Source of the DNA: Lampris incognitus
Lineage: Eukaryota; Chordata; Actinopteri; Lampriformes; Lampridae
Direction: 5' to 3'
Length of the DNA stretch: 64,000 nucleotides
Assembly (NCBI RefSeq): GCF_029633865.1
Contig: NC_079220.1
Location: 56,836,356-56,900,355, forward strand
The notes beneath the pieces were generated by a model. That model had not been told where the DNA came from, made no database searches, and saw nothing but the letters and a program-made list of their open reading frames with translations. Made by a program: the position numbers and the translations under genes. Positions 2,947 through 64,000 of the stretch are shown piece after piece. The stretch's first letter is position 1, and every line of letters begins with the position of its first letter.

Positions 2947-42196
<39,250 letters not shown>

Positions 42197-43109
42197 GCTC
42201 AGCTCGGGCGCGGTGCCCCCCCCGAACGATTTAATGTCCTGCCGATGCGAGTAGCGGGGCAACGCGTAGCTAGCTGGCTAGCCGCCTCAGGAGCTAGGGG
42301 ACGGGTCGCAGGCTGACGTGACAGCACCGGGGTTTCATGGTCCGCTCGCCTCGCCTCGCGTCGACGGCAGTCCGGACGCAGCCAGCTAGCTCGCTAACAC
42401 CGCCCGTACTCAGCGCGGCGCAACACTCCGAGTTCACGTTAGCCGGCGAGAGATACACGTAAAGGCGCCTGTTCCGTACGCGCTGCGGCTGCGGCTGCGT
42501 CGCCGTACGGACGAAGTTTGCGTCAATTCAACAGAAACGGTGCCGCTTTTTTTGAGCGTCGGCGGGCTAACGGCTGCGCGGAGTGGCGCGGCGGCGGCGG
42601 AGGAGCGCTCCGATGGTGGCGTTGGAAGTTACGGCACTGCTAGCATATCCGCCGCGGCTAGCTAACTCTGTTAGCTCGCCCACTCTGATGAAGGCATGTC
42701 AAACTGCAGACGCTACGCTTCTTTGGCGATCACTCGCGTCCACCTCATGCCGACGTCGTTTGCCAATTTAAAACGAACATGTGTTTCGACGCGCCGGTCG
42801 ATCTAACGGGACATAGTTACGCTGAAGAAACGTAATCGTGCTCGACTGTTCCTGTTTTTCCGTTTCGGGCGGCTCTGCTCTACAGCCAGCCAGCCCCTGC
42901 TTAAGGGCTTTGCGTCGCCACTTCCTGCTTTACGGCAGAAACGGAACACAACTGCGCTGCGCTCTGGCCGACGAGTACGAGCGTACGCACGCACACGCAC
43001 GTACACGCACACGCCCGCTTCAGCATAAACCGGATGTAAGTTATCCTTTTCTCTGCAAAGTGCCGAAATGTTGTCGCTTTATCCAAAGTGCCATTACTCG
43101 CATCTGGCA

Positions 43110-43875: not shown

Positions 43876-44074
43876 AAACCGTAACAGTTGAAGCTCTATA
43901 CCAAAAACAGTTGAAGCTCAATAACTCTCATAAATTCACCAAAACTCACTAAAGTGCATCAAACATGTTACACGAATAACAGTGCAAAACATATTACAAC
44001 ATGTGATACCACAGTATTAGCACAAAATGCTCAAAACTTGACATTATAGAGAAAAACAACAGCGAGCTTTTTTG

Positions 44075-44520
44075 GGGGGGGGATTTTTCCCCGTTTCTCC
44101 CCAATTGTATCTGGCCAATTACCCCAATCTTCCGAGCCGTCCCGGTCGCTGCTCCACCCCCTCTGCTGACCCGGGGAGGGCTGCAGACTACCACATGTCT
44201 CTCCCCATACATGTGGAGTCACCAGCTGCTTCTTTTCACCTGACAGTCAGGAGTTTCACCAGGGGGACGTAGCGCGTGGGAGGATCATGCTATTTCCCCC
44301 AGTTTCTCCTTCCCCCCGAACAGGCACCCAGACCGACCAGAGGAGGCGCTAGTGCAGCGACCAGGACACATACCCACATCCGGCTTCCCACCCACAGACA
44401 CGGCCAATTGCGTCTGTAGGGATGCCCGCCCAACCCAAGCCGGAGGTAACACGGGGATTTGAACCAGCAGTCCCCGTGTTGGTAGACAACAGAATAGACC
44501 TCCACGCCACCCGGACACCC
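44075..44520 (-). mobile_element. tRNA-headed SINE, nearly complete
   Basis: On the minus strand the tRNA-like head is followed by gtgttacctccggcttgggt and the conserved body to caattggggagaaac. It sits in the intron just after the third coding exon of the truncated myosin gene. Confidence 0.85.
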
Positions 44521-44604
44521 CAGATTTTATGTAGTTTACAAAATGGTATCATGAGGTTATCGATGCTATCCAGTGCTCATACAGGATCCATCGGTCGGTC
44601 TTAC

Positions 44605-44761
44605 CTGTGAGCATATTTTGATATGCCTTATCAGAAACTGAGAAAATGTGGGGCGGTGCCTCCATGCGCTTTTTGCCCCTGTAGGCGACCACCACCAGTG
44701 GGTCATACACTGGCAGCCACTTGTAGGGGTTCACAGTGACACAGAACAGCCCAGAGTAGGT
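44605..44761 (-). pseudogene. Truncated myosin, coding exon 3
   Basis: Reads [36 protein letters not shown] and ends MLT plus one base at a GTAAGA donor, 157 bp. No partner exon follows. Confidence 0.9.
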
Positions 44762-44842
44762 CTGCAAATGAAAATCCACAAATAAGACGCACATATAACG
44801 GACAGATGAGTGCAACTGTCCTCTGCTGAAGACCTTACTCAC

Positions 44843-44986
44843 GTAGACCATCCGTGCTGCACAACCTTCTTCGAGGTTAAACAGCACAGAGGGCTCGCTG
44901 AGGTGGGTCATCATGGCCATGTCCTCAATCTCCTCATACTTTGGTGGGTTCATAAGATGGCAGCCATCCTCTGTAGCCGTTACAGG
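44843..44986 (-). pseudogene. Truncated myosin, coding exon 2
   Basis: Reads [20 protein letters not shown] and onward to ARMVY. Acceptor tgtcag, donor GTGAGT, 144 bp. Confidence 0.88.
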
Positions 44987-45084
44987 CTGACAAACACAGC
45001 GACAAACCCTTCAGGGAACACAGCGCTGCCGTACACGTTTATCTTTGTCACACTAAGTCATGTGAAGCTTTATTCCAGCATCAC

Positions 45085-45288
45085 CCCCCCAGCGTCAGTC
45101 TTCACTGTGGCCTGGCCACCGTCTTGGTTCTGGATGACACCTCTGATGTACAGGTCTTTGGCATCCGGCGCAAAGCGAGCTGATTTGGCGTCGAAGGGCC
45201 GGTTTTGAGCCTCGGTCCTTTCCTCCTCAGGTTTGCGGAGGTACATGGCTGCAGGCCCGTACTGGGCCATCTCAGCATCAGAGCTCGT
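45085..45288 (-). pseudogene. Truncated myosin, coding exon 1
   Basis: From the mutated start (ACG) through [20 protein letters not shown] to VKTDAGG, then a GTGATG donor. The next in-frame ATG is the M of AEMAQ, seven codons in. Confidence 0.85.
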
Positions 45289-45385
45289 GGTGACCACAGT
45301 GACTCAGGATGGCAAAGTCCTTTTAAACCACTTCAGTCTGTTGTTATTTTACATCAAGCCGACCAGATTTATGTCTCTGCCTTAC

Positions 45386-45430
45386 CGTGCTCAAGACCCC
45401 CAGGTGATTTGTTTTAGATGTTCTGCAGTC
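45386..45430 (-). other. Predicted 5' noncoding exon 2 of the truncated myosin gene
   Basis: A 45-bp segment lies between a strong acceptor (tttgatttgcag) and a GTAAGG donor, at the place where sarcomeric myosin genes have a short noncoding exon. Confidence 0.6.
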
Positions 45431-45535
45431 CTGCAAATCAAACACAGGGAAACTCTTTTGCTGATACGCTGAGGATGACACGCAAGGCGACGTCAGTGCA
45501 GATGGAAGACGGGAGATGTTGGATGTAAATCTTAC

Positions 45536-45676
45536 CAGCGGTTAGTCGGGGACAGGCCTCTCTCTCGGTGAGCACCACGGAGACGCGGAGCTCCTTTTAT
45601 TGAGACGAATGTGCCGGTCGAGTGAAAGGGACACTCCATATTTGGTAACGTCCTCCCGTTCAAATGTCAATCAAGA
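45536..45676 (-). other. Predicted 5' noncoding exon 1 of the truncated myosin gene
   Basis: It starts about 25-30 bases downstream of a TATA box and ends at CGCTG|GTAAGA. The upper boundary is an estimate. Confidence 0.5.
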
Positions 45677-45701
45677 CACATTATGGACTTCTGGTCAGCA
45701 C

Positions 45702-45708
45702 TTATATA
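45702..45708 (-). promoter_or_regulatory. TATA box of the truncated myosin gene
   Basis: The minus strand reads CGTATATAAG, with a CACCTG E-box about 45-50 bases further upstream (near 45,753). This is the layout of a muscle gene promoter. Confidence 0.65.
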
Positions 45709-49924: not shown

Positions 49925-62533
<12,609 letters not shown>

Positions 62534-62682
62534 CTGTACAACGACAAAGTAAAACGGGACATTAAATCTGTAATTTAAAACTTAACGGTATCAGAATCAG
62601 GCTTTGTTGGCCAAGTACACTTTTACACATACAATGAATTTGTCTTGGGTTGTCAGAACTCAGAACGTACTTTACATACAAA

Positions 62683-62742
62683 CATACATACATACATACA
62701 TACATACATACATACATACATACATACATACATACATACATA
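62683..62742. repeat. (CATA)n microsatellite, left
   Basis: About 15 units of cata, directly abutting the (tag)n tail of a LINE copy. Confidence 0.95.
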
Positions 62743-63515
62743 CTACTACTACTACTACTACTACTTTCGGCTGCTCCCGTTAGGGGTCGCCACAGCGGCT
62801 CATCCGTTTCCATTTCTTCCTGTCCTCTGCATCTTCCTCTGTCACACCAGCCACCTGCATGTCCTCCCTCACCACATCCATAAACCTCCTCTTTGGCCTT
62901 CCTCTTCTCCTCTTCCCTGGCAGCTCCATATTCAGCATCCTTCTCCCAATATACCCAGCATCTCTCCTCCACACATGTCCAAACCATCTCAATCTTGCCT
63001 CTCTTGCTTTGTCTCCAAACCGTCCAACCTGAGCTGTCCCTCTAATATAGTCGTTCCTAATCCTGTCCTTCTTCATCACTCCCATGAAAATCTTAGCATC
63101 TTCAACTCTGCCACCTCCAGCTCCACCTCCTGTCTTTTCATCAGTGCCACTGTCTCCAAACCATACAACATAGCTGGTCTCACAACCATCTTGTAAACCT
63201 TCCCTTTAACTCTTGCTGGTACCCTTCTGTCCCAAATCACTCCTGACACTCTTCTCCACCCACTCCACCCTGCCTGCACTCTCTTCTTCACCTCTCTTCT
63301 GCACTCCCCGTTACTTTAGACAGTTGACCCCAAGTATTTAAACTCATACATCTTCGTCACCTCTACTCCTTGCATCCTCACCATTCCTCTGTCCTCCCTC
63401 TCAGTCACACATATGTATTCCAGCTTGCTGCTACTGACTTTCATTCCTCTTCTCTACAGTGCATACCTCCACTTCTCCAGGCTATCCTCCACCTGCATCC
63501 TACTACTACTACTAC
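62743..63515 (-). mobile_element. RTE-like LINE, 3' copy between CATA arrays
   Basis: The minus strand reads GWSGWRRVSGVIWDRRVPAR, LYGLETVALMKRQEVELEVA and RRRGRPKRRFMDVVREDMQV. The (tag)n tail is at the low end. It is 5'-truncated in the reverse transcriptase region. Confidence 0.9.
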
Positions 63516-63535
63516 AACTACCCTACCACCCACAC

Positions 63536-63640
63536 ACATACATACATACACATGCATACATACATACATACATACATACATACATACATACATACATACA
63601 TACATACATACATACATACATACATACATACATACATAAG
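63536..63640. repeat. (CATA)n microsatellite, right
   Basis: About 24 units of cata with minor interruptions, beyond the 5' end of the LINE copy. Confidence 0.95.
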
Positions 63641-63937
63641 TATACATACATCTATACTGAAATACATTATGTGCCTTCAACAGCAATGAAGGGGGAATTC
63701 ACAGACCACAGGGGTGTGAAGTGTAAATGGATTATCTGCACAGCTGTCGCACAATAAGCACATTTACGGCAACAAGTGCTGTGTATGGAGCAGTGCAAGA
63801 CGAAGCTGAATATGAAGCTGAATAAATAAATGATTTTAAACAGATGGAAATTATGTACAGCTATTGTCCAGCAAACATGTCATGAAGCTGAATATAAATA
63901 AATGATTATGTATGGATGATGATTATGGATGTGCCCT

Positions 63938-64000
63938 GTGATGGCTTGACGGCCTGTCCAGGGTGTCTCAACGCCTGCCACCCTAATGACTGCCGGGATA
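63938..64000 (-). mobile_element. Composite SINE fragment at window edge
   Basis: Contains cctgtccagggtgtctc and atgactgccgggata, the complement of the module at 7.03 kb. Continues off the window. Confidence 0.6.

Follow-up and report, generated by a model that had tools for sequence, protein, structure and literature searches.

The window analysed here, that is, the whole 64,000-nucleotide stretch C13:56,836,356-56,900,355 of the 1.48-Gb genome of Lampris incognitus, carries on its minus strand a short remnant of a myosin heavy chain gene. On one side of the remnant, and on the same strand, lie coding exons (2950..40522) of a gene which we take to be xpo6, since they were found by tblastn with a human XPO6 sequence. 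The first coding exon of xpo6, with its ATG, was not located with this query, and searches of PDB and Pfam both failed to recognise the gene. A CpG-rich stretch (41901..43100, no strand assigned), likely to be the xpo6 promoter, precedes it about 1.5 kb from the remnant. On the other side lies the 3' part of a neighbouring myosin gene (50608..64000, minus strand), whose head lies outside the window, near C13:56.911 Mb. This neighbour has both motor and tail exons and is apparently complete, and it was the sole other myosin found in the window and in the 200 kb that follow on the upstream side of the remnant.

Several repeated elements were also observed in the window. An intron of xpo6 contains an inverted repeat (17525-18067 and 18195-18737) with 543-nt arms that are 99% complementary and 127 nt apart, and two arrays of 30-bp tandem repeats are present at 29-639 and 27959-28588. 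The only Rfam match at threshold in the whole window was a U6-like sequence on the plus strand in an xpo6 intron (31664-31758; 44.8 against a threshold of 44 bits), probably a U6 pseudogene. Between 42,000 and 50,500 there were three Rfam matches, all far under threshold, and thus no family at threshold near the remnant; retention of the remnant because of an intronic miRNA was rejected on this ground.

The remnant comprises three coding exons on the minus strand. Exon 3 (45085..45302) has a 14-nt leader after a GAG acceptor, followed by 204 nt (68 codons) from an ACG triplet; exon 4 (44843..44986) has 144 nt and carries an altered form of the KERYAAWMIY block; exon 5 (44605..44761) has 157 nt and ends in the donor G/GTAAGA. 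The joined exons give 168 codons with no stop and no indel, the same length as residues 1-168 of rabbit Myosin-4. Pfam recognised Myosin_head (E 4.9e-27) and Myosin_N (E 3.6e-9) in them, and the best PDB match was Myosin-4 (E 1.2e-69, for a query that was short of five exon 4 residues and hence shows a gap there). Because of these matches, the myosin identity of the remnant is far beyond chance. What is preserved is the N-terminal SH3-like domain and the start of the motor, in the exon structure of the fast-skeletal family, with introns 3 and 4 of 98 and 81 nt, similar to those of compact paralogs. The rest of a complete motor (P-loop, switches) and the coiled-coil tail are missing from it.

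An earlier note on this DNA had read the start codon as ACG in a preserved GTCACC context, and the ERYAAWMIY motif of exon 4 as EGCAARMVY. Both readings were confirmed, the former at 45,288-45,286 (GTCACC/ACG), and the junctions 45,085/44,986 and 44,843/44,761 were likewise found in the sequence at these coordinates. The further claim that the exon lengths are exactly those of the family needs qualification: the lengths of 204, 144 and 157 nt stand, and exon 3 has the same 204 nt in the paralogous loci L039, L047 and L049, but it measures 207 nt in the copies shown from chromosome 15 (C15). The splice sites, described as intact, do retain their GT and AG dinucleotides, and the exon 5 donor is good; at exon 3, however, the acceptor is GAG and the donor GGG/GTGATG is weak, without +5G and -2A. 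The corresponding donors are AAG/GTGAG in L039 and L047, AAG/GTATGT in L049, and GAC/GTAGG or GAG/GTAGG in the C15 copies. If the exon 3 donor is not used, the reading frame continues as VMLE and then meets a TAA, which overlaps an AATAAA placed just inside intron 3 (45069..45074, minus strand).

No further part of the gene follows exon 5. A tblastn search with motor exons 6 onward against window positions 1-44,600 (E<=10) gave three matches, all with E of 7 or more; these are at chance level, and the absence of a P-loop or any later myosin exon before xpo6 was thereby borne out. A SINE-like repeat (44068..44521, minus strand) begins 83 nt past exon 5, at the truncation point. Exon 5 and exon 6 are 92-95 nt apart in L031, L034 and L039 (more in L047), and these distances make intron 5, up to the start of the SINE, the most likely site of the break. 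No target-site duplication was found adjacent to the SINE; this is weak evidence, because a clear duplication is present in only 8 of 19 other full-length copies of the element. The truncation is unique among the 45 exon-5 places examined (hand-selected from 88 matches, and thus a lower bound): only the remnant lacks following motor exons within 15 kb. Conversely, among 47 exon 7/8 places, taken from the matches listed, none was an orphan. Those on C6 and C12, unpaired at first, have exon-5 matches of lower identity.

The genome search returned one 100% match, the remnant itself. The best exon matches to paralogs are 82-87% (on C2), and the C15 copies match at 71-74% over exons 4-5 including intron 4. 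At the protein level, exon 5 is nearest to copies on C15 and C5, with up to 90% identity. In the trees, the remnant groups with the fast-skeletal set rather than with slow/cardiac copies, and the neighbouring myosin and locus L001 fall outside this group (support 98 for nucleotides and 86 for protein). The 10 rows behind the trees and branch tests come from a 168-column alignment without start codons, in which the 69th codon of the C15 exon 3 was cut. Three of the 17 C15 loci (L030-L038, L040-L046 and L048) entered the trees and branch tests, and four entered the count of invariant residues given below. Exon 3 could not be found in L040, L041 and L045, and a usable exon 3 of L050 is absent from the alignment.

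An origin as a recent duplicate of the neighbouring myosin was rejected, given that the neighbour groups outside and the best exon match is 87%. A retrocopy was rejected too, because the introns and exon lengths are kept. It had also been suggested that the remnant is the decaying tail of a tandem myosin array. The decay of a truncated copy is upheld by our data, but there is one local neighbour, of a different lineage, and the large array lies elsewhere. Since this neighbour groups outside the fast set and is the sole other myosin found in the window and the next 200 kb, the remnant appears to be the last piece of a separate copy and not the tail of a local array.

Analysis of selective constraint revealed that the remnant has changed 10 of 88 otherwise invariant residues, including radical changes in the KERYAAWMIY block. 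In the controls the numbers were 3 for C15, 2 each for L039 and L047, 0 for L049 and L050, 3 for the neighbour and 1 for rabbit (of 60-81 residues), and 6 of 84 for L001, the most divergent of them. On the nucleotide tree, omega (dN/dS) of the remnant branch was 0.28 versus 0.117 elsewhere, with 2dlnL of 5.56 against equality and 7.96 against an omega of 1; on the protein tree it was 0.23 versus 0.114, with 2dlnL of 4.1 and 13.75, respectively. Equality is thus rejected weakly and an omega of 1 more strongly; the values lie between the background and 1, so that the loss probably came late. Six other branches were tested in the same way. Four did not differ in omega, the internal branch x4, which leads to intact genes, had an omega of 0.46 (2dlnL 4.02), and the L001 branch had a much lower omega with saturated dS (2dlnL 8.74).

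Simulations in which indels were assumed to occur at 0.08-0.15 per substitution put the neutral distance compatible with the open frame at no more than about 0.04-0.06. By our arithmetic, the surplus of replacements points to a distance near 0.09, and at that distance the simulated frame stays unbroken with a probability of about 0.01 or less. The two values would be reconciled if relaxed evolution came first and the loss late. Substitutions specific to the remnant favour A/T to G/C changes about two to one per site; the neighbour shows a like bias at a looser threshold, and L047 a similar ratio on few changes. Biased gene conversion in the remnant and its neighbour is a possible cause, and the bias may add to the replacement excess. 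Because omega is also raised on branch x4 and G/C changes are favoured at the remnant, its neighbour and some further rows, part of this excess may not stem from loss of function.

Upstream of the coding exons, the motif TATATAA, which had been taken as a retained TATA box, is indeed present (45702..45708, minus strand), but it is weak evidence alone, because six of the seven rows scanned (787 to 1,500 nt per row) have a TATAWA ahead of the start, five of the six other rows among them. Downstream of it, a perfect CArG box, CCAAATATGG (45636..45645, minus strand), which matches the SRF-type consensus and may belong to the true proximal promoter, and an alternative TATA-like core, ATAAAAGG (45593..45600, minus strand), may together form the real promoter core, judging by these motifs. 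The neighbouring myosin has CCAAATATAG upstream of ATATAAAAG with a spacing like that of the remnant's pair, but the alignment of the two promoters is not significant (55 of 200 mononucleotide shuffles reach its score).

Two noncoding exons had also been proposed. Exon 1 probably spans 45536..45570 (minus strand; donor CGCTG/GTAAGA); its 5' end is uncertain and would lie at about 45,675 should transcription depend on the upstream TATA. Exon 2 (45386..45430, minus strand) is a probable 45-nt exon with AG/GT borders, flanked by TTTGCAG and GTAAGG, and resembles in size and place the probable 44-nt exon 2 of L039. The proposal is plausible to this extent, but convincing DNA similarity to the upstream regions of six paralogs was not found. 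With 200 mononucleotide shuffles per paralog, the alignment score was reached by 2 shuffles for L031, 10 for L034, 9 for L038, 43 for L039, 180 for L047 and 55 for the neighbour. The matches to L031 (with a nominally low shuffle count) and L034 were discounted, because mismatched regions are paired in these alignments: the promoter/exon-1 side of the paralog lies against the intron-2/exon-3 side of the remnant.

Taken together, these data indicate that the remnant is very probably an unprocessed pseudogene, young and truncated, derived from a fast-skeletal myosin heavy chain gene. It is most likely what ordinary gene turnover left behind fairly recently, broken but with its frame still open. 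It keeps the introns of its parent, and its disabling lesions are the truncation after exon 5, the ACG start and the weak exon 3 donor; the 168 codons without a stop or frameshift count against this reading. On this view, the space between xpo6 and the neighbouring myosin once held a full myosin gene, which would have lost exon 6 and everything beyond it at the breakpoint of a deletion or partial duplication. That breakpoint would lie in intron 5, where the SINE now sits, and recombination between SINEs may have been the cause. The remaining 5' piece would then have lost its ATG and several residues of the motor core. It would now have no selected product, and any transcript would be short, poorly spliced and unstable.

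The unbroken frame could also mean that a short protein is still made, starting from the ACG or from Met7 (GAG ATG G) and ending in intron 3 (the VMLE stop) or in intron 5, which would constitute an isolated myosin N-terminal SH3-like domain. This agrees with an omega significantly below 1 across the whole branch and with the AATAAA and in-frame TAA just past the weak donor. We nevertheless consider it very unlikely: the otherwise invariant KERYAAWMIY block is radically altered, loss of the ATG and the weak donor would lower the output, and the low omega is explained by past constraint on the full gene. Repetitive gene families are error-prone in genome assembly, and a misassembly that placed the rest of this gene elsewhere would account for the truncation. 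The window, however, contains no N, none of the 47 exon 7/8 places examined (from the matches listed) is orphaned, and the one 100% match in the genome is the remnant itself; such an error is very unlikely.

The proximity of xpo6, on the same strand with its CpG-rich stretch about 1.5 kb away, raises the question of transcription running into that gene. A muscle-type promoter might still fire, giving a spliced RNA that interferes with xpo6 or yields chimeric MYH-xpo6 transcripts in muscle. The CArG and TATA-like motifs and the good exon 5 donor would allow this, and so would the frames: a junction of exon 3 or exon 4 with xpo6 exon 2 is in frame, and one out-of-frame ATG of exon 5 continues into the xpo6 frame. 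(The slices of exons 1-3 used in this check had 1-2 extra nt at some of their leader ends, which leaves the frames after the start unaffected.) But splicing from exon 5 to xpo6 exon 2 leaves the myosin frame, there are many upstream ATGs, the weak exon 3 donor is closely followed by a stop and AATAAA, the promoter motifs either are widespread or show no significant arrangement, and no Rfam family matches at threshold nearby. On balance, read-through of this kind is very unlikely. Exportin-6 is the export receptor for actin. If the remnant had been retained to supply xpo6 with alternative first exons specific to muscle, with exons 1-3 or 1-4 spliced in frame to xpo6 exon 2, the result would be a fibre-type-controlled, N-terminally altered or repressed exportin-6; this variant is extremely unlikely.

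The truncated pseudogene we favour is a new instance of birth and death in the known myosin families of fish. In the stickleback MYH3C cluster, a partial tandem duplication of MYH3C2 has been described, for which MMBIR and NAHR were proposed (PMC12776057). Like the remnant, it is an incomplete fish myosin copy, there connected with a change in copy number; it belongs, however, to a recent array expansion, whereas the remnant, with a best exon match of 87%, has diverged and stands alone beside xpo6. In medaka, MYH14 was lost with retention of miR-499 expression (PMC3716903), a case in which the locus of a lost teleost myosin gene keeps regulatory DNA. The remnant differs in that no Rfam family, miRNAs included, reaches threshold near it. 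We found no paper combining xpo6, myosin heavy chain, cluster and teleost, and no title or abstract opening concerned with this remnant. The breakpoint, the flanking SINE and the open frame should make the order and date of the loss readable once sister species are compared. The remnant would gain in importance only if RNA from muscle showed its orphaned promoter to be feeding xpo6.

Fast-skeletal MYH genes of teleosts form clusters A, B and C, together with single D-type loci (PMC3869912; neither 'xpo' nor 'exportin' occurs in its main text). The remnant belongs to the same gene family, and its exon 5 most resembles copies on C15 and C5. The C15 array itself (G000:C15:27.04-27.75 Mb), on a contig other than that of the remnant, is very large: at least 22 places in it match exon 5 and belong to fast myosins that closely resemble one another, and one more is interrupted by a stop. 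Exon 4 looks defective in two of its members, L040 and L041. Finally, L001 (G000:C18:48,624,887-48,629,920) encodes a sarcomeric myosin of 1,953 aa in one open frame, which covers the motor-domain model (2-679) without introns and resembles an intact retrocopy of the slow/cardiac type.
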